Source of the DNA: Flagellimonas abyssi
Lineage (GTDB): Bacteria > Bacteroidota > Bacteroidia > Flavobacteriales > Flavobacteriaceae
NCBI RefSeq assembly: GCF_019457905.1
Contig: NZ_JAHZSV010000003.1
Coordinates: 372,001-436,000 of the forward strand
Reading direction: 5' to 3'
Length of the DNA: 64,000 nt
The position numbers and the translations under genes are program-made. This document shows positions 4,169 to 35,273 of the stretch, piece by piece (within the stretch, counting starts at the first letter, position 1; each line of letters begins with the position of its first letter). The notes under the pieces were generated by a model. It saw only the letters and a program-made list of their open reading frames with translations, did no database searches and was not told the DNA's origin.

Positions 4169-5461
4169 ATGAAATACTTCCAGATAGACAGTAATCTTTT
4201 TGTGAAAAACCGCAAGAAATTTATGGCCCACATGCGGCCCAAAAGTATTGCGGTATTCAACTCCAACGATATTTATCCCATTGGGGCTGATAGCACCCTG
4301 CCCTTTGAGCAGAACCGCGATCTATTCTACTTGAGCGGCGCCGACCAAGAGGAAACTATTTTGTTATTGTTCCCAGATGCAATGGATTCGAAGCATAGGG
4401 AAATTCTTTTTGTTAGGGAAACCAATGACCATATTGCCGTTTGGGAAGGCGCAAAGCTCACCAAAGAAAAGGCCACCGAAGTATCCGGGATAGAAACCGT
4501 GTATTGGCTCACCGATTTTGACAAGATCTTTTTTGATCTGATGACCGAAGCGGACACCATATATTTCAACACCAATGAGCATTACCGCCAAGCGGTGGAG
4601 ACGCAGACCCGTGAAGATCGTTTCATAGAAAAATGCAAGAAAGAGTACCCTGCGCACCAATGGGCCAAAAGCAATCCCATTTTGCAGAATATCAGAGGGG
4701 TAAAAGAACCCGAGGAAATTGAGTTGATGCAGAAGGCATGCGATATTACCGAGAAGGGATTCAGGCGCATATTGGGGTTTGTAAAGCCCGGTGTTTGGGA
4801 ACACGAGATGGAAGCCGAGTTCCTTCACGAATTTGTCCGTAACCGCTCCAAAGGTTTTGCCTACAGTCCAATTATAGCCTCTGGAAACAATGCCAACGTA
4901 CTACACTATTTGGAGAATAACCAAGAAGTGAAGGATGGTGATATGATTCTTTTGGATCTTGCCGCTGAGTACGCCAACTATTCCAGTGACATGACCCGGA
5001 CTATTCCTGCCAACGGGAGATTTACCGACAGGCAAAAAGAAGTATACAGCTCTGTGCTCCGTGTTAAGGATGAAGCCACTAAAATGTTGGTTCCGGGTAC
5101 CATTTGGGCCGAATACCACAAAGAAGTGGGAAAATTGATGACTTCCGAATTAATAGGCTTGGGCTTATTGGACAAGGCCGATGTGCAGAATGAAAACCCA
5201 GATTGGCCAGCGTACAAAAAATACTTTATGCATGGCACCAGCCACCATATTGGATTGAATACTCATGACTACGGAGAATTAAAAACACCGATGAAAGCCA
5301 ATATGGTATTTACGGTGGAACCAGGAATCTACATTCCGGCAGAAGGAATGGGTGTCCGTTTGGAGGATGATGTGGTCATTCAAGAAAAAGGAGAGCCATT
5401 TAATTTAATGCGCAACATCCCTATCGAGATTGAAGAAATCGAAGAGTTGATGAACAAGTAA
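4169..5461 (+). CDS. pepP: Xaa-Pro aminopeptidase (aminopeptidase P)
   Basis: Cytosolic metallopeptidase of 430 residues that removes an N-terminal residue preceding proline. An AMP_N domain covers about 1-150 (FYLSGADQEETILLLFP). The M24 pita-bread domain covers about 180-425 and holds all five metal ligands: two Asp in LLDLAAEYANYSSDMTRT, His in HGTSHHIGLNTHDYG, Glu in FTVEPGIYI and Glu in VRLEDDV. The length is that of PepP. A complete promoter sits at 4118-4149, and the gene appears monocistronic or leads into the small ORF at 5531. Confidence 0.95.
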   Translation: MKYFQIDSNLFVKNRKKFMAHMRPKSIAVFNSNDIYPIGADSTLPFEQNRDLFYLSGADQEETILLLFPDAMDSKHREILFVRETNDHIAVWEGAKLTKEKATEVSGIETVYWLTDFDKIFFDLMTEADTIYFNTNEHYRQAVETQTREDRFIEKCKKEYPAHQWAKSNPILQNIRGVKEPEEIELMQKACDITEKGFRRILGFVKPGVWEHEMEAEFLHEFVRNRSKGFAYSPIIASGNNANVLHYLENNQEVKDGDMILLDLAAEYANYSSDMTRTIPANGRFTDRQKEVYSSVLRVKDEATKMLVPGTIWAEYHKEVGKLMTSELIGLGLLDKADVQNENPDWPAYKKYFMHGTSHHIGLNTHDYGELKTPMKANMVFTVEPGIYIPAEGMGVRLEDDVVIQEKGEPFNLMRNIPIEIEEIEELMNK

Positions 5462-11595: not shown

Positions 11596-11668
11596 CTTCG
11601 GCTGCCTGCCCGTCAGGCAGGCGCTCAGCTACCCAATCCAATTTGGTGATTGAGCGAAGTCGAAATCA
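11596..11668. repeat. Palindrome-bearing core repeat between sufB and sufC
   Basis: 11596-11629 read on the minus strand is GCTGAGCG, then an 18-base palindrome (CCTGCCTGACGGGCAGGC), then AGCCGAAG: the family core with a palindrome nested in its centre. 11650-11668 holds a second, simple core (TGAGCGAAGTCGAAATC). CTGCCTG and CAGGCAG could pair as a 7-bp stem with a 5-base loop in the operon mRNA. There is no U-run, so it is not a classical terminator. Confidence 0.75.
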
Positions 11669-12530: not shown

Positions 12531-13847
12531 ATGGATTTAAAGGAAAAATTAGTCTCCTCTTTTATGGCTTTTGAAGATGGTTTGGATTTAGATCATCCAG
12601 TACATGAGGAAAGATCCAGTGCCATAAAGAATTTTGAGACCAAGGGCTTCCCGACAAAAAAGGATGAAGCTTGGAAATATACCTCGTTGAGGGGCTTGGA
12701 AAAGATAGATTTCAGCATCTTTCCAAAGCACGAGACCACGTTGGAATACAAGGATGTGAAAAAATACTTCCTCCACGAGATAGACACCTACAAGATTGTT
12801 TTCGTTGATGGGGTGTATAGTTCATACCTGTCCGAAACCACACATGATGGCGTAGATGTCTGTTTGATGAGCTCTGCCTTCAGTAAGCCCATGTTCAAAC
12901 AGGTGATAGAGGTGTATTTCAACAAAGCGGCCTCCAAAGATGAGTCGTTGACCTCTTTGAACACAGCGTTCAGTAAAGAAGGTGCCTATATCTACATTCC
13001 AAAGAACAAAATGCCGAAGAAGCCTATCCAAATTTTGCATTTGGCCACTGGCAAGGAACCAGCCTTGATGTTGCAACCCCGTAACTTGATCGTTGCCGAG
13101 GACAACGCTGAGGTTCAAATTATAGAACGCCACCAAAGTTTGACGGGGAATGAAGTGTTTACCAACTCCGTGACCGAAATTTTTGCTGGCAAGGACGCCA
13201 TCGTGGACTACTACAAAGTTCAGAACGATGAGCCTACCGCCTCCTTGGTGGACAATACATATATCTCACAAAAAGATAGCAGCGTTGTAAGGGTGCATAC
13301 GTTCTCCTTGGGTGGAAAATTAATCCGTAACAACCTGAACTTTTACCAGAACGGGGAGCGTATCGACTCTACCTTGAAAGGGATTACGATTTTGGGCGAT
13401 AAACAGCATGTGGACCACCACACTTTGGTGCACCACGCACAGCCCAATTGTGAGAGCCATCAAGATTATAAGGGTATTTTCGGGGATAGCTCCACAGGAG
13501 TGTTCAACGGAAAGATCATTGTGGACAAGATTGCCCAAAAGACGGATGCCTTTCAGCAGAACAACAATATTTTGTTAAGCGATAAATCGACCATCAACTC
13601 AAAACCCCAATTGGAAATCTTCGCGGACGATGTAAAATGTTCGCACGGTTGTACCATTGGTCAGTTGGACGATGAAGCGCTCTTTTATTTGAGGTCAAGA
13701 GGAATTCCAAAAAAAGAAGCCAAGGCTTTGCTGATGTACGCTTTTGCCAACAACGTTTTGGAAAGTGTGCGTATCCCAGAGTTAAAGCTGCGGATCAATA
13801 AGATCATTGCGGATAAACTGGGTGTACGCATGGGCTTTGATCTGTAA
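12531..13847 (+). CDS. sufD: Fe-S cluster assembly protein SufD
   Basis: 438-residue partner of SufB in the SufBC2D scaffold. The N-terminal helical region (about 1-130) has KKDEAWKYTSLRGL, typical of SufD. The beta-helix shows QPRNLIVAEDNAEVQIIERH, DSTLKGITILGDKQHVDHHTLVHH, HQDYKGIFGDSSTGVFNGKI and FADDVKCSHGCTIGQLDDEALFYLRSRGI, the last carrying the conserved Cys/His near the cluster-forming interface. 27 bases separate it from sufS. Confidence 0.96.
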   Translation: MDLKEKLVSSFMAFEDGLDLDHPVHEERSSAIKNFETKGFPTKKDEAWKYTSLRGLEKIDFSIFPKHETTLEYKDVKKYFLHEIDTYKIVFVDGVYSSYLSETTHDGVDVCLMSSAFSKPMFKQVIEVYFNKAASKDESLTSLNTAFSKEGAYIYIPKNKMPKKPIQILHLATGKEPALMLQPRNLIVAEDNAEVQIIERHQSLTGNEVFTNSVTEIFAGKDAIVDYYKVQNDEPTASLVDNTYISQKDSSVVRVHTFSLGGKLIRNNLNFYQNGERIDSTLKGITILGDKQHVDHHTLVHHAQPNCESHQDYKGIFGDSSTGVFNGKIIVDKIAQKTDAFQQNNNILLSDKSTINSKPQLEIFADDVKCSHGCTIGQLDDEALFYLRSRGIPKKEAKALLMYAFANNVLESVRIPELKLRINKIIADKLGVRMGFDL

Positions 13848-13874
13848 AACAAACTTTTTCACGATTACATTACA

Positions 13875-15101
13875 ATGATAGAGACCACTTTGGACATACA
13901 AGCCATTAGAAAGGATTTTCCCATCCTCCAAAGAGAGGTCAATGGGAAGCCTTTGGTGTATTTGGACAATGCAGCTACCTCGCAGACACCGCAGCAGGTA
14001 ATCGATGTCATTGTTGATTATTACAAGCGGTACAACGCCAATATCCATCGTGGGGTACATACCTTGTCTCAAGAGGCCACCGATGCCTACGAAGCGGCGC
14101 GGCAGAAAATCCAAAAGCACTTTAACATTGCGCATTCCCGCGAAGTGATCTTTACTTCGGGAACTACCCATGGCATCAATTTGGTGGCATCGGGATCCAC
14201 TTCCTTTTTAAAGGAGGGGGATGAGATTTTGGTATCGGCAATGGAGCACCACTCCAATATTGTGCCTTGGCAAATGCTGTGCGGACGCACGGGGGCAACC
14301 CTAAAAGTGGTTCCAATGAATCTGGAAGGGGAGTTGGTCATGGAGGAATACCACAACCTGTTATCGGATAAGACAAAATTGGTGTTCTGCAACCATGTAT
14401 CCAATGCGTTGGGAACCATAAACCCCATAGAAGAAATCATTGAAGCTGCACATAAAGTTGGAGCGGCCGTATTGATAGATGGGGCGCAGGCTGCGGCACA
14501 CATCAAAGCTGATTTACAAGCCTTGGATGTGGACTTTTATACCGTTTCCGCCCATAAAATGTGCGGACCAACGGGGGTTGGAATGCTTTATGGCAAGGAG
14601 GAATGGCTCAAGAAATTGCCTCCTTACCAAGGAGGAGGGGAAATGATCGCCGAGGTAACTTTTGAAAAGACCACTTATGCCGATCTGCCCCATAAGTTTG
14701 AAGCTGGAACGCCCAACATCTGTGGAGGCATTGCCTTTGGAGCCGCATTGGATTATATGAACAGCATAAGTTTTGATGCCATTGCCCAGTACGAAGATGA
14801 GTTGGTCCGATATGCCACAGAGCAATTGCTTGCCATTGACGGTTTGAAAATCTACGGAACCGCAACGCATAAAACTTCGGTAATATCCTTTAATATTGAA
14901 GGCGTGCATCCCTATGATATCGGAACCATTGTGGACAAATTGGGCATTGCCGTTAGAACAGGGCACCATTGCGCACAACCAATAATGGATTTTTACCAGA
15001 TTCCGGGAACAGTAAGGGCCAGTTTTAGCTTTTACAATACCAAGGAGGAAGTGGATAAACTGGTGGAAGGTGTTACACGTGCAAGGAATATGTTGCTATA
15101 A
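13875..15101 (+). CDS. sufS: Cysteine desulfurase SufS
   Basis: 408-residue PLP enzyme that takes sulfur from cysteine for Fe-S assembly. Group II features are present: GNP-like entry VYLDNAATSQTP, GTTHGINLVASG, EHHSNIVPWQ, DGAQAAAH, Schiff-base lysine at about 228 in SAHKMCGPTGVG, and the persulfide-bearing cysteine at about 366 in VRTGHHCAQP. It is followed after 72 bases by sufE, its sulfur acceptor. Confidence 0.97.
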   Translation: MIETTLDIQAIRKDFPILQREVNGKPLVYLDNAATSQTPQQVIDVIVDYYKRYNANIHRGVHTLSQEATDAYEAARQKIQKHFNIAHSREVIFTSGTTHGINLVASGSTSFLKEGDEILVSAMEHHSNIVPWQMLCGRTGATLKVVPMNLEGELVMEEYHNLLSDKTKLVFCNHVSNALGTINPIEEIIEAAHKVGAAVLIDGAQAAAHIKADLQALDVDFYTVSAHKMCGPTGVGMLYGKEEWLKKLPPYQGGGEMIAEVTFEKTTYADLPHKFEAGTPNICGGIAFGAALDYMNSISFDAIAQYEDELVRYATEQLLAIDGLKIYGTATHKTSVISFNIEGVHPYDIGTIVDKLGIAVRTGHHCAQPIMDFYQIPGTVRASFSFYNTKEEVDKLVEGVTRARNMLL

Positions 15102-15173
15102 CCAGACCGTTATCATTATCATAAAGACTTGAATGGCAACCCTCCGAGTTGTACTTTTGAATAAAACCATCGC

Positions 15174-15596
15174 ATGACCATAAAAGAGATACAGGAAGAG
15201 ATAATAGATGAGTTTTCCATGTTCGACGACTGGATGCAGCGTTACGAATACATGATCGAGCTCGGAAAATCACTTCCATTGATAGCCGAACAGTACAAAA
15301 CCGATGACAACCTGATCAAAGGATGCCAGAGCAAGGTGTGGGTGCATGCCGAACTCGATGGTGACAAATTGCTGTTCACGGCTGATAGTGATGCCATCAT
15401 TACGAAAGGAATCATTGCCATTTTGGTCAGGGCGTTCAGCAATCAAAAGCCACAGGACATTATTGATGCCGATGTGGAATTTATTGATGAAATAGGTCTT
15501 AAAGAGCATTTGTCACCAACGCGGGCAAATGGATTGGTAAGTATGATCAAGCAATTGAAATTGTATGCGGTTGCCTATCAAACACAGTTAAAATAA
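15174..15596 (+). CDS. sufE: Cysteine desulfuration protein SufE
   Basis: 140 residues. SufE takes persulfide sulfur from SufS and passes it to SufB. The acceptor Cys is C51 in LIKGCQSKVW, the same position as in well-studied SufE proteins, and the C-terminal block EIGLKEHLSPTRANGL is also characteristic. The stop is only 6 bases before the next gene, consistent with one transcript. Confidence 0.95.
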   Translation: MTIKEIQEEIIDEFSMFDDWMQRYEYMIELGKSLPLIAEQYKTDDNLIKGCQSKVWVHAELDGDKLLFTADSDAIITKGIIAILVRAFSNQKPQDIIDADVEFIDEIGLKEHLSPTRANGLVSMIKQLKLYAVAYQTQLK

Positions 15597-15602
15597 CACA
15601 GA

Positions 15603-15932
15603 ATGAGCGAAGAAACTACCATAGATACACAAGAACTGGGCGAAAAAATCGTAAAGGTGCTCAAAACCATCTACGATCCAGAAATTCCTGTGGACATTTA
15701 CGAACTGGGATTGATTTACGATGTGTTCGTAAACGAGGAATACGAAGTAAAGATCTTGATGACCCTTACCTCGCCCAATTGCCCTGTGGCCGAAACCTTG
15801 CCCGTGGAGGTAGAGGAGAAAGTGAAGTCCATTGATATGCTGAAGGACGTGGAGGTGGAAATCACTTTTGACCCACCATGGACCCAAGAACTGATGAGCG
15901 AGGAGGCGAAATTGGAGTTGGGCCTTTTGTAA
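15603..15932 (+). CDS. sufT: SufT-like DUF59 (MIP18 family) protein
   Basis: 109-residue single-domain DUF59 protein in the SUF operon. The hallmark IYDPEIPVDIYELGLIYDV is at about 24-42 and a conserved Cys lies in LTSPNCPVAETLP. Relatives act in Fe-S maturation or cluster transfer, and operon position supports that. The symbol is by family and context; biochemical details here are inferred. Confidence 0.92.
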   Translation: MSEETTIDTQELGEKIVKVLKTIYDPEIPVDIYELGLIYDVFVNEEYEVKILMTLTSPNCPVAETLPVEVEEKVKSIDMLKDVEVEITFDPPWTQELMSEEAKLELGLL

Positions 15933-15962
15933 AACCCCGGTAAACCTAAAAGACATGACGAC

Positions 15963-16196
15963 ATGACCACAAGACAAATCGATAGAATTATTGAGATGGC
16001 TTGGGAGGACAGAACCCCGTTCGAAGCCATAGAGTACCAGTTTGGTTTAAAGGAAAACGACGTGAGGGAAGTGATGCGAAGCAATCTCAAACGTTGCTCT
16101 TTTGAGTTGTGGAGAAAACGGGTAAAGGGAAGAAAGACCAAACACCAAAAAACGTCCCCGGCCAATAGATTTAGGTCGCAGAATCAAAAATTATAG
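15963..16196 (+). CDS. DUF2805 / TIGR03643 family protein
   Basis: 77-residue basic protein with a helix-turn-helix-like N-terminal half (RQIDRIIEMAWEDRTPFEAIEYQFGL, KENDVREVMRSNLKRCSFELWRKRV) and a Lys/Arg-rich tail (KGRKTKHQK). The family is widespread in bacteria with no assigned function. It lies 30 bases after the DUF59 gene, at the end of the SUF operon, so a role linked to iron-sulfur metabolism or its control is possible but unproven. Confidence 0.88.
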   Translation: MTTRQIDRIIEMAWEDRTPFEAIEYQFGLKENDVREVMRSNLKRCSFELWRKRVKGRKTKHQKTSPANRFRSQNQKL

Positions 16197-16225
16197 CGGT
16201 TCCAGCCCTCGCGAAAAATACAAAT

Positions 16226-16732
16226 ATGGAAAAGGAAATCGTAAATAGAGTAGCCCAAAGCAAGTTGGTCACGTTCGACCTGGAGGATTATTATCCGAAA
16301 GGGGAGCGTAAGGTCTTGGACATCAAAGATTGGTTGTACGAGGGATTTATTCTTCGTGAAAAGGAGTTCCGCGCCCATGTTGATGCGCATGATTGGTCAA
16401 TGTACCAGGAAGCTTATGTGGCGCTTCAATGTTCTTCGGATGCCATTATTCCAGGCTGGGCCTTTATGTTGGTTGCCTCCAAACTGCAACCCTACGCCAA
16501 AAAAGTAGTTCAAGGAAATTTGGAAACCTTGGAAACGGCACTTTATCAAACTATTTTGGAAAAGTTGGATGTGACCGAGTTTGCAGATAAGCCTATAATC
16601 ATAAAAGGTTGCTCCAAAAAACCCGTACCCGAAAATGCCTATCTAATGGCGGTGGCCAAAATCCAAGAAGTGGCCAAAAGTATCATGTACGGGGAAGCCT
16701 GCTCTTCGGTACCCCTGTTCAAGAGAAAATAG
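16226..16732 (+). CDS. DUF2480 family protein
   Basis: 168-residue soluble protein with the family pattern: N-terminal VNRVAQSKLVTFDLEDYYPKGERKVLDIKDWLYEGFILREKEFR, central ALQCSSDAIIPGWAFMLVASKL and C-terminal IKGCSKKPVPENAYL. Function unknown. Restricted largely to Bacteroidetes and often found after suf genes; here it is the last gene of the operon (29 bases after DUF2805). Conserved Cys residues could bind metal or sulfur, but this is speculation. Confidence 0.9.
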   Translation: MEKEIVNRVAQSKLVTFDLEDYYPKGERKVLDIKDWLYEGFILREKEFRAHVDAHDWSMYQEAYVALQCSSDAIIPGWAFMLVASKLQPYAKKVVQGNLETLETALYQTILEKLDVTEFADKPIIIKGCSKKPVPENAYLMAVAKIQEVAKSIMYGEACSSVPLFKRK

Positions 16733-16753: not shown

Positions 16754-17064
16754 GGTCGCTGAGCACCCGGCCTGCCGGACGGACAAGAAGTTGAAGCAAT
16801 ATGGCCGGATATCGATATTTTACGAGGAAAGCCTGTTGGTTCTTTGATGTCAGAAGTGATGTAAATCCAGCATTTTGGTATAAAAGTCCTTGTTTTCCCG
16901 ATTTCTTGTGGCGAACCCTCGCTCAACTGCGGGCAAAAACAGGGTGACTGTTCTGTTATCGTCCATTTCGATGAGTGGCCATGGTTTGAGATACTTCGCT
17001 CCGCTAGGTATGACAACTCGGTCGCTGAGCGTAGTCGAAGCGACATGCATGTTATCGACATTTT
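16754..17064. repeat. Composite dispersed repeat, copy A
   Basis: Fills most of a 551-base gap (16733-17283) without a convincing gene. The layout is a worn core with a palindrome (16754-16799), a body with ATCGATATTTTACGAGGAAA (16811-16830) and a block from CATTTTGGTATAAAAGTCC (16871) to TGACAACTCG (17020), then a clean 24-bp core at 17021-17044 with GTCGCT...AGCGAC ends. The body is nearly identical, in inverted orientation, to 26272-26490. ORFs through it are in both cases open only by chance. Confidence 0.85.
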
Positions 17065-17283: not shown

Positions 17284-18216
17284 ATGAAAAAACTACTTTT
17301 TATTGCTTTGTCCTTTTTTGTTGTTTCAATGGCTTCGGCCCAGACGGAAGAGGAACTTAAAGCTCAAATTGCTCCAAAGAAGGACTCGATTGTAGCTATA
17401 CAATCACGTGTAAATGCCTTACAGAAACAATTGGACGCCCTCCCCGGCTGGAAAATCGGTGCTTTCGGCACCATTGGTGGGAGTATATCGCAGTTCAACA
17501 ATTGGTTTGCACAAGGAATTCCCAACAACTCATCAGGAAACATCGGATTTACGGTAAATTCCTTCGCTAATCTTCAGGAAAAGAAGTTTTTTTGGAGAAA
17601 CGCTGCCAATGTTAATCTCGCATGGGTAAAATTGGACGATAAGGACGACCCAACGGACGATGATAGCTTTCGCCAAGCTACGGATGTCTTTAATATTTCA
17701 TCGTTGTACGGTAGAAAATTAAGCGAGAAGTTTGCTATTTCCGGTCTTGTGGAATACCGGACCACAATACTGAGCAACTTTAACGACCCCGGGTATTTAG
17801 ACCTTGGTGTGGGTGCCACTTGGACCCCGATACCAGATTTGGTGGTGGTAATGCATCCGCTCAACTACAACTTTGTGTTCAGCAATGAGGATACCATTTT
17901 TGAATCGTCCATGGGTGCCAAGATTGTTGCGGACTATACGAAACAAATAGGAGCAGTGAGCTTTAAGAGTAACCTATCCCTGTTCCAAAGCTATGAAAGC
18001 AGCGACCTGAGTAACTGGACATGGACCAACTCCTTCAGTTATACATTATGGAAAATGATAGGGGTAGGGTTTGATTTTGGTTTGAGAAACAACAAGCAAG
18101 AGACGCTTAACTATATCGTGAACAATGCCCCGACCCCCAATCCGGATGCTACCTTCGATGCCATTGATAACGAGTTGCAGACCTACTGGACTTTAGGGCT
18201 CAGCTACAAGTTCTGA
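17284..18216 (+). CDS. DUF3078 family outer-membrane-associated protein
   Basis: 310 residues from the ATG at 17284, chosen because it opens a clear signal peptide (MKKLLFIALSFFVVSMASAQ) right after a -7 element; a longer frame to 17170 reads through intergenic sequence. After a short coiled segment (residues 30-55) come beta-rich repeats typical of DUF3078: SISQFNNWFAQGIPNNSSG, RQATDVFNISSLYGRK, WTPIPDLVVVMHPLNYNF and the C-terminal YWTLGLSYKF, as in an outer-membrane barrel strand. A strong terminator follows. Confidence 0.88.
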   Translation: MKKLLFIALSFFVVSMASAQTEEELKAQIAPKKDSIVAIQSRVNALQKQLDALPGWKIGAFGTIGGSISQFNNWFAQGIPNNSSGNIGFTVNSFANLQEKKFFWRNAANVNLAWVKLDDKDDPTDDDSFRQATDVFNISSLYGRKLSEKFAISGLVEYRTTILSNFNDPGYLDLGVGATWTPIPDLVVVMHPLNYNFVFSNEDTIFESSMGAKIVADYTKQIGAVSFKSNLSLFQSYESSDLSNWTWTNSFSYTLWKMIGVGFDFGLRNNKQETLNYIVNNAPTPNPDATFDAIDNELQTYWTLGLSYKF

Positions 18217-26226: not shown

Positions 26227-26525
26227 GTCGCTTCGACTACCTGCCCGTCCGGCAGGCGGACGCTCAGCGACGGGGTTGTCATTCCTAGCGGAGCGAAGTA
26301 TCTCAAACCACAGCCACTCATCGAAATGGACGATAACAGAACAGTCACCCTGTTTTTGCCCGCAGTTGAACGAGGGTTCGTCACAAGAAATCGGAAAAAC
26401 AAGGGCTTTTATACCAAAATGTTGAATTTGTATCGCTTTACACAAATGAAAACCAATAGCTTTTCCTCGTAAAATATCGATAACATGCGTGTCGCTGAGC
26501 GGAGTCGAAGCGACCGAGTTGTCAT
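26227..26525. repeat. Composite dispersed repeat, copy B (inverted relative to copy A)
   Basis: Contains a core with a 21-bp palindromic insert (26227-26271), the body (26272-26490, near-identical to the reverse complement of 16809-17020) and a second simple core at 26491-26514. Seen against identical flanks (TGACAACTCG on one side, GCATGTTATCGA on the other), this second core is inverted compared with the one at 17021-17044. Both cores end in GTCGCT/AGCGAC. Confidence 0.85.
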
Positions 26526-26580
26526 ACTGAACGAAGCGACCATTTTCTCATTACTCAATACAAACTACCGACATCCAAAA

Positions 26581-27294
26581 TCAAACCTTTTTGATTTCTT
26601 CGTCCGACAAGAGCTCCTCATTTCGTAAGCGTAAAAAAACCTGTGCGGTGGTCACTACATCCAGTTCACAATAGTTGATGATTCGGTCGATGTCCTTTTC
26701 CTTGTAGAACACATCTTTTACCATACTGCCATCCATATCCTCTTTTGGGGAAGGGATGCCCAGTATATGCGCCAATAATTTGAGCGAGGTGTAATGTTTA
26801 TAATCGCCGAACTTCCAAAGTTCCATGGTGTCCAGATGGGGTATTTCCCATGGCTTTTTTCCGAACAGGTCCAGCTTGTAGGGCAGATTGATGCCGTTTA
26901 TGATCATTCTGCGGGCGATATACGGAAAATCGAACTCTTTGCCATTGTGGGCGCACAAAAGATGCTTTACGCCGCTAAAATAACCTGTCAGCAGTTGTTT
27001 GAACTCTTTCAGGATTTTAGTCTCGTCACCATAAAAGGAAGTGGTCCTAAATGTCCTTAGATCTCCTTGTATTTTAAAATAGCCTACGGAGATGCAGACA
27101 ATTTTACCAAATTCGGCCCAAATGCCAGCCCGGTCGTAAAATTCCTCGGGCGTGAACTCTTCTTTTCGCTGGTACTGTGTTTTTTGTTCCCATAATAGCT
27201 GGGCAGTTTCATCCAAATCGGTGAAATGTTGTTGTTGGGGTACGGTCTCGATATCCAAAAAAAGGATATGCTCCAGGTTAAGTTTATAAAGCAT
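26581..27294 (-). CDS. DEDDy-type 3'-5' exonuclease (PolB-exonuclease-like)
   Basis: 237 residues from the ATG at 27294; the frame also runs to a TTG at 27303 that abuts the ogt stop. RNase H-fold motifs: ExoI ILFLDIETVPQ (Asp, Glu), ExoII CAHNGKEFDFPYIARR (Asp) and ExoIII INYCELDVVTTAQVFLR (Tyr and Asp), matching the predicted PolB-type exonuclease family (PF10108). Located at the end of a three-gene run with ogt and the CNNM protein. Together with ogt this suggests DNA repair or processing. Confidence 0.9.
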   Translation of the reverse strand: MLYKLNLEHILFLDIETVPQQQHFTDLDETAQLLWEQKTQYQRKEEFTPEEFYDRAGIWAEFGKIVCISVGYFKIQGDLRTFRTTSFYGDETKILKEFKQLLTGYFSGVKHLLCAHNGKEFDFPYIARRMIINGINLPYKLDLFGKKPWEIPHLDTMELWKFGDYKHYTSLKLLAHILGIPSPKEDMDGSMVKDVFYKEKDIDRIINYCELDVVTTAQVFLRLRNEELLSDEEIKKV

Positions 27295-27303
27295 GGTAGC
27301 CAA

Positions 27304-34562: not shown

Positions 34563-35273
34563 TTAATTGTTTTTTCGATTTTGAAAGGCGCTTCGACTCC
34601 GCTCAGCATCCCCACGAATCGATAATTCTTTTATCGCTTGCACCAACACATTTTCCACGGTTGGTTTGTTAGCTGTAATTATATTTTTTGAATGTTTTTG
34701 AGCTTCAGCAGCTGTAGTCTCTCCGATACAGAACAAGATGCTGTTCCCTAATGAATTTTCCAAAAGATAGCTTCGGATGCCACTTGGACTGAAAAACAGA
34801 ACACCATCAAAATCCCTTTGAAACGCCTTTGGATTTAAATGGGTTCGGTAGACTTCCAGCTCTTTATACTGAACGTTATTTTTTGTCAAAGTTTCAGGGA
34901 GTTCATCCCTTCGCTTGTTGCCACAAAGAAATAGGAAAGACTCGTTTTGATGATTTTTCACAAGAATTTCAGCCAATTCTGATGCATTTTGGGCCATTTC
35001 AACCACTTTTACGCCATTTTCTTCCAAATGTGCTTTTGTTTTTTCCCCCACACAGTAGGCGCGGAACTTTGATTTCTCCAGACGCTCGGATTGATTCAAA
35101 AATACCTTCACGGCATTCTTGCTGGTAAAAATATAGTTGGAGTAGTTGAAGGGAATCTTCACGTCCAGCGGTTCGATTTTTAAGGCATCGTACTCCACCA
35201 ATCCCAAACTGGAATTTAGAAAGAGTTCCTTTTGTGATGGGGTCAGTATTTTAGTGGAGAGCACTGTTTTCAT
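34563..35273 (-). CDS. hemD: Uroporphyrinogen-III synthase with repeat-derived tail
   Basis: 236 residues. HemD closes and inverts ring D of hydroxymethylbilane. The family is poorly conserved, but NYIFTSKNAVKVFLNQ, FRAYCVGEKTKAHLEENG, LFLCGNKRRDELPETL and VLFFSPSGIRSYL are typical. The start overlaps hemC by 23 bases. The last 17 or so residues (RGDAERSRSAFQNRKNN) are encoded by a dispersed core repeat at 34590-34607, so the C-terminus is probably not ancestral. Confidence 0.93.
   Translation of the reverse strand: MKTVLSTKILTPSQKELFLNSSLGLVEYDALKIEPLDVKIPFNYSNYIFTSKNAVKVFLNQSERLEKSKFRAYCVGEKTKAHLEENGVKVVEMAQNASELAEILVKNHQNESFLFLCGNKRRDELPETLTKNNVQYKELEVYRTHLNPKAFQRDFDGVLFFSPSGIRSYLLENSLGNSILFCIGETTAAEAQKHSKNIITANKPTVENVLVQAIKELSIRGDAERSRSAFQNRKNN
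34590..34607. repeat. Core repeat inside the 3' end of hemD
   Basis: GCTTCGACTCCGCTCAGC here is the exact reverse complement of part of the core at 26493-26510. It is in frame and codes for AERSRS near the HemD C-terminus. Confidence 0.85.

Follow-up and report, generated by a model that had tools for sequence, protein, structure and literature searches.

The 64-kb window analysed here (64,000 nt of the Flagellimonas abyssi genome) holds two 24-bp cores, A and B, that lie between matching outer flanks and run in opposite directions, which raises the question whether such a core is a switch that still flips or the trace of a past mutation. Re-reading of the sequences bore out the original prediction of matching flanks around opposite cores at 17021–17044 and 26491–26514. 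On the plus strand, core A has the context TGACAACTCG-GTCGCTGAGCGTAGTCGAAGCGAC-AT-GCATGTTATCGA (17011–17058), and on the minus strand core B has the context TGACAACTCG-GTCGCTTCGACTCCGCTCAGCGAC-AC-GCATGTTATCGA and reads TCGACTCCGCTC in register of the flanks. Only two sites in the 4.4-Mb genome assembly combine both flanks with a gap of 20–50 nt (reversed-pattern control, 0). Because the ends GTCGCT and AGCGAC are 6-bp inverted repeats, the change is confined to the 12-nt loop between them, which is GAGCGNAGTCGA in A and TCGACTNCGCTC in B, plus one substitution (T/G). The proposal of an inversion at the 6-bp ends, by a recombinase or by template switching, thus holds for the event itself: between short inverted arms, the loop was truly inverted in place. 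A known RNA family for the hairpin was rejected, as the 64-kb window gave zero matches to Rfam at the gathering threshold.

The resemblance of the cores is not due to chance, since both are located at the ends of a 223-bp inverted repeat with 89% complementary copies (Table 1). Core A lies at the right end of its copy of the repeat and core B at the left end of its own; the cores are therefore paralogous junctions and not the same position of one repeat. Copy A is situated between the DUF2480 and DUF3078 genes and copy B between the subtilase and DNA_pol_B_exo2 exonuclease genes. In two relatives (G010 C112 and G011 C1), the matches to DUF2480 and DUF3078 do not share a strand as they do in the window, which would fit an inversion of the stretch from locus A to locus B. 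A section of the repeat body is similar to the spacer that follows a frame of dprA-like appearance (by eye) about 39 kb upstream (L093, C38:349000–350000 of the window genome; 84% over 41–43 nt), and several relatives have similar hits at comparable distance. A 20-nt palindrome (CCGCCTGCC..GGGCAGG) sits at the same position in the REP hairpin loop in the window (26227–26271, minus strand), L124, L265, and L285; such palindrome-in-loop insertions across several loci and species comprise four distinct cases by a strict pattern and more by eye. The frame that carries the minus-strand further loop resembles uroporphyrinogen-III synthase, but is below the NCBIfam cut-offs.

Table 1. Features of the window at and around loci A and B.
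Feature	Position	Strand	Remark
Core A: REP-like hairpin, forward loop (GAGCGTAGTCGA)	17021..17044	+	
Core B: same hairpin as A, loop reversed in place; apparently the derived state	26491..26514	-	
Repeat body, copy A	16810..17032	+	89% identical to copy B, inverted orientation
Repeat body, copy B	26260..26482	-	
Left-hand hairpin of copy A: forward, degenerate, interrupted	16755..16800 (ends approximate)	+	partly by eye
Right-hand hairpin of copy B: forward loop, interrupted by 20-nt palindrome CCGCCTGCCGGACGGGCAGG	26227..26271	-	
20-nt segment between outer left arm (GTCGCT, 26535-26540) and core B	26515..26534	-	
Further loop of the same family	11651..11664	+	
Further loop of the same family	34592..34605	-	near C-terminal end of uroporphyrinogen-III synthase-like frame
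DNA_pol_B_exo2 3'-5' exonuclease gene	26581..27303	-	orthology anchor for locus B
DUF2480 gene	16226..16732	+	left neighbour of locus A
DUF3078 gene	17284..18216	+	right neighbour of locus A; start picked by eye, listed frame from 17170

The 24-mers form a REP-like family, common in a group of marine bacteria, in which the loop is conserved and the arms vary in sequence but stay complementary. Matches to the loop TGAGCGNAGTCGAA number 52 in the 4.4-Mb genome (38 exact, 14 with one mismatch; reversed-pattern control, 3), and copies with the conserved core are dispersed, as in REP-like palindromic repeats, and arranged singly, as inverted doublets, or in tandem arrays. At least four further paired bases extend the hairpin in 27 of the 37 distinct exact-core contexts, and 15 different 5-nt arms occur among those 27; with shuffled arms, a mean of 2.4 and a maximum of 8 contexts had at least four further pairs (1000 shuffles). 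The hairpin is thus kept by complementary arm changes, again as in REP-like repeats. The tags of named REP classes are not constant parts of it: no constant GTAG was seen by eye beside the stem in the genome contexts (GTAG appears within the loop when N = T), CGTC is present in some hairpin copies only, and the stem of about 6 bp and loop of 12 nt do not fit the 8–9 bp stem and 4–5 nt loop of CGTC-tagged REPs or RPEs. The window genome has one Y1_Tnp gene, and a cognate RAYT (REP-associated tyrosine transposase) was rejected, as the 5.5 kb around this sole gene contain no core at up to one mismatch. We recognised no description of loop inversion in REPs, or of this hairpin family, among the open-access papers that our searches listed.

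The direction of change at locus B was read from relatives, with orthology anchored on the exonuclease stop codon. Allomuricauda aurea BC31-1-A7 (L142), which has 94.3% DNA identity to the window over 22.7 kb, has the same loop orientation as the window at both loci A and B. The locus B loop is forward in G013 and in G017, where it reads TATTGAGTAATGAGAAAATGGTCGCT-GAGCGGAGTCGA-AGCGAC with the leader TATTGAGTAATGAGAAAATGGTCGCT common to the window, and the window and A. aurea have the reversed loop. The inversion at 26491–26514 hence looks derived and appears to predate the split of the window genome and A. aurea. G010 has a decayed stretch at locus B that starts like that of the window. In most other named relatives, the 160 nt next to the exonuclease stop contain no loop of this kind, and the comparison leaves out L146, L173, and L174 (forward, with unlike flanks) and L171 ('<' of another palindrome type). 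The window, A. aurea (with a degenerate form), and G010 all have a forward left hairpin in copy A. The common left flank TGACAACTCG of core B lies within the 20-nt segment 26515–26534, which is absent from G017 and G013; the inversion event, or a neighbouring one, would thus also have inserted sequence, and the segment may belong to the same event as the inversion. In G017 (L124), the regions orthologous to loci A and B contain 7-bp repeat arrays with hairpins dispersed among the repeats (1590–2660, 4655–5277, and 13233–16374).

The original prediction also held that this could be an active, unrecognised inversion element, and advised counting both orientations over the genome and its relatives; the counts proved to be one-way almost throughout and do not support such an element. 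We compared 50 hairpins of the window genome, with 200-nt flanks, to A. aurea: 19, picked by reading the alignment table, pair cleanly and all have the same orientation, loci A and B among them (17 pairs are a single alignment of 312–414 nt and two are in two pieces), 29 are without a clean partner, and one locus differs, namely prmC (two hairpins, o13/o14). The apparent opposites (rows 2, 10, 12, 14, and 25) each reflect the second hairpin of an inverted doublet: for rows 10 and 12 a partner of the same orientation exists, row 14 is prmC, and rows 2 and 25 were left out. Of the 20 copies in the 19-kb stretch of G017 that includes loci A and B, 19 could be classified by their TG(A/G)TGCC flank, and these share a single direction. 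All recognisable second hairpins in leuS (17/17; 69 loci with anchors) and all recognisable first hairpins in mfd (15/15; 28 loci with anchors among 30 of 69 matching genomes) read '<'. The leuS class '>>' contains a second palindrome type (CGAGCGCAGTCGAG and like) that, judged by eye, is not an inverted form of the REP-like loop, and two '><' rows and one '>' row in mfd are likewise of the other palindrome type. A phase-variation switch was rejected as improbable on the uniform orientation in A. aurea (paired hairpins), the G017 stretch, leuS, and mfd. With prmC as the sole exception to the uniform orientation in A. aurea, loop inversion looks like a rare, fixed change. This is close to the outcome that had been named in advance as speaking against a flipping element, i.e., a fixed orientation per locus with a few old events.

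The exception at prmC points to how the loop is reversed. The prmC sample comprised 63 loci (30 + 33; L339 without anchors), of which 22 had a scored second hairpin, and 19 of these alleles are canonical and three inverted (G061, which matches the A. aurea assembly in contig number and place, G017, and G002); unscored loci with a second hairpin that looks canonical by eye are L241 (interrupted), L314, L316, L317, and L333. Counted from the loop, the stem is at most 6 bp long in 19/19 canonical alleles and 12 bp (G061), 10 bp (G017), and 7 bp (G002) long in the inverted ones, so that all three inverted stems exceed all 19 canonical stems. The stems are longer because the left arm has been rewritten to complement the right arm: canonical relatives have GAAGCGTCATT and A. 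aurea has GAATGGTCATT opposite AATGACCATTC, and the right arm of the inverted alleles is as in canonical relatives. Arm homogenisation and loop inversion thus occur together at prmC, a combination known from the literature as a mark of template switching and not expected of a recombinase. For 22 independent alleles, the three longest stems would fall on the three inverted ones by chance in 1 of 1540 cases, but these alleles are not independent. The G061 and G017 alleles have flanking changes in common and, on this resemblance, may descend from one event that was spread by recombination. A prmC tree, calculated with a stricter classifier (11 canonical, 3 inverted), forces three label changes, and the clustering of the inverted alleles does not exceed that of shuffled labels (mean 2.8); transfer could explain part of these changes.

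The loop is open in both directions in the reading frame that is used, with GAGCGNAGTCGA encoding ERSR and TCGACTNCGCTC encoding ST-x-L. Hairpins are found in long open frames that score above the NCBIfam cut-offs as PrmC, LeuS, Mfd, cisplatin-response ATP-dependent DNA ligase, MetG, and phosphoribosylformylglycinamidine synthase (purL). REP-like pairs lie in frame in the prmC, leuS, and mfd genes of many species of one genus, and the window genome has the hairpin, single or paired, in its DNA ligase, metG, and purL genes. At the mfd linker site (loci L283–L312), three different palindromic inserts occur across species, all in frame: STPLS..VTERSRS, SSETLKQVQGDE, and VTSSAVEKQTEASPSTALGMTA. 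Five of the 69 leuS loci (L363, L369, L370, L374, and L378 of G001, G045, G041, G007, and G034, respectively) have, at the site of the REP pairs of other species, a long in-frame insert with a DUF559 nuclease-like domain that is flanked by GGGGAGG-type repeats; DUF559 was identified in L363 with Pfam (E = 8e-36) and assigned by sequence likeness in the other four. A search for DUF559 and in-frame insertion in the open-access literature yielded no paper related by title.

Relative to its orthologues, the loop of core B is reversed in place, and a few similar events are seen in the genus. We consider it probable that the 24-mer, as one member of the REP-like hairpin family, had its loop at locus B reversed by polymerase template switching before the A. 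aurea split. The nascent strand would jump to the complementary arm during replication, copy the 12-nt loop backwards, and then jump back to the original template. The two mechanisms first put forward fare differently in this respect, with template switching favoured by the prmC alleles and a recombinase left without support. A site-specific recombinase that flips the 24-mer at its 6-bp inverted ends, as a phase-variable switch, would be expected to leave exactly such a reversal between identical flanks, yet a conservative inversion would swap both arms, whereas the inverted prmC alleles retain one arm and have the other rewritten, and this argues for template switching. The same-way orientation at both loci and at all paired hairpins in A. 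aurea and the lack of a recombinase among the nine neighbouring proteins scanned make this explanation very improbable; 6-bp ends with a 12-nt spacer are also very short for known invertases. Hardly credible is excision of the hairpin and its reversed reinsertion by a RAYT: the family is REP-like, forms inverted doublets, and shares its genome with one Y1_Tnp gene, but the 5.5 kb around that gene have no core at up to one mismatch, and the strand-specific chemistry of the IS200/IS605 type is not expected to invert a unit in place.

Unlikely, though less so, is a reversed loop without any in situ inversion, by ectopic gene conversion or insertion from a REP copy of opposite orientation. The number of loop matches in the genome, the tandem hairpin arrays of G017, and the likeness of the 20-nt segment beside core B to the flank of copy A agree with it, and a donor for locus B is possible. 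G061 and G017 also hold other hairpins with a GGTCATT left arm. Copies of the inverted prmC unit with up to two mismatches, however, are absent elsewhere in G002 and number one in G061 (two mismatches) and four in G017 (one to two mismatches), and these differ in the right arm and have an A-type, not a G-type, loop, which makes ectopic conversion less likely. The new arm of the G061 prmC allele is, moreover, complementary to the right arm over 12 bp, past the REP stem into the gene. As for template switching at locus B, the arms there are already perfect and consequently bear no signature of it; we infer that the locus was probably flipped by the same mechanism as prmC. Against this reading, single-strand DNA folding of the cores is unexceptional (two 36-nt stretches no better than shuffles; z = -0.40 and -1.09), and the stem-length contrast at prmC comes from three alleles, two of them with the common flanking changes. 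Compared with the yeast cases described in the passages of PMC8604942 on spacer inversion, where inversions were seen only with arms of more than 9 bp and spacers of 2–5 bp, locus B also has shorter arms and a longer loop.

The evidence supports a mutational explanation of this striking inversion and speaks against a switching one, and the hairpins offer a naturally occurring collection of orthologous bacterial sites at which inversions by template switching can be counted. A more speculative idea, which we put forward tentatively, is that the hairpin might serve as a two-way coding cassette: template switching would repeatedly recode four residues, e.g., in PrmC, without breaking the proteins, and would keep the stems perfect, letting the family persist in genes without a dedicated transposase.

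Neither the hairpin family nor the inversion mechanism is of a new kind; new examples are the hairpin pairs that lie in frame and the loop inversion that recodes a protein. Like the REPs and REPINs treated in passages of PMC3733652, the family consists of a short palindromic repeat in tens of copies, as singletons and inverted pairs, with varying complementary stems and with some in-frame units inside genes; intragenic REPs, also in repair genes, are known from the same passages. It differs from REPs and REPINs in its conserved 12-nt loop, its stems of mostly 4–6 bp, the lack of an end GTAG tag, and a position not adjoining the Y1_Tnp gene. With Rickettsia palindromic elements (RPE), as outlined in PMC3733652, it has in common the in-frame palindromic inserts in conserved protein genes and the CGTC that precedes the stem in some copies, but the CGTC families have, by that description, 8–9 bp stems and 4–5 nt loops in place of about 6 bp and 12 nt. 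Hairpin loop inversions in rRNA, bacterial cases among them, are attributed to template switching in the relevant passages of PMC8794818, as are arm homogenisation and spacer inversion in yeast coding DNA in those of PMC8604942. The closest likeness to prmC there is yeast REG2, in which the loop was inverted, one arm turned into the complement of the other, and amino acids changed (PMC8604942); in contrast to REG2, the change described here affects a bacterial repeat family with a 12-nt loop that is open in the used frame both ways, as ERSR or ST-x-L.
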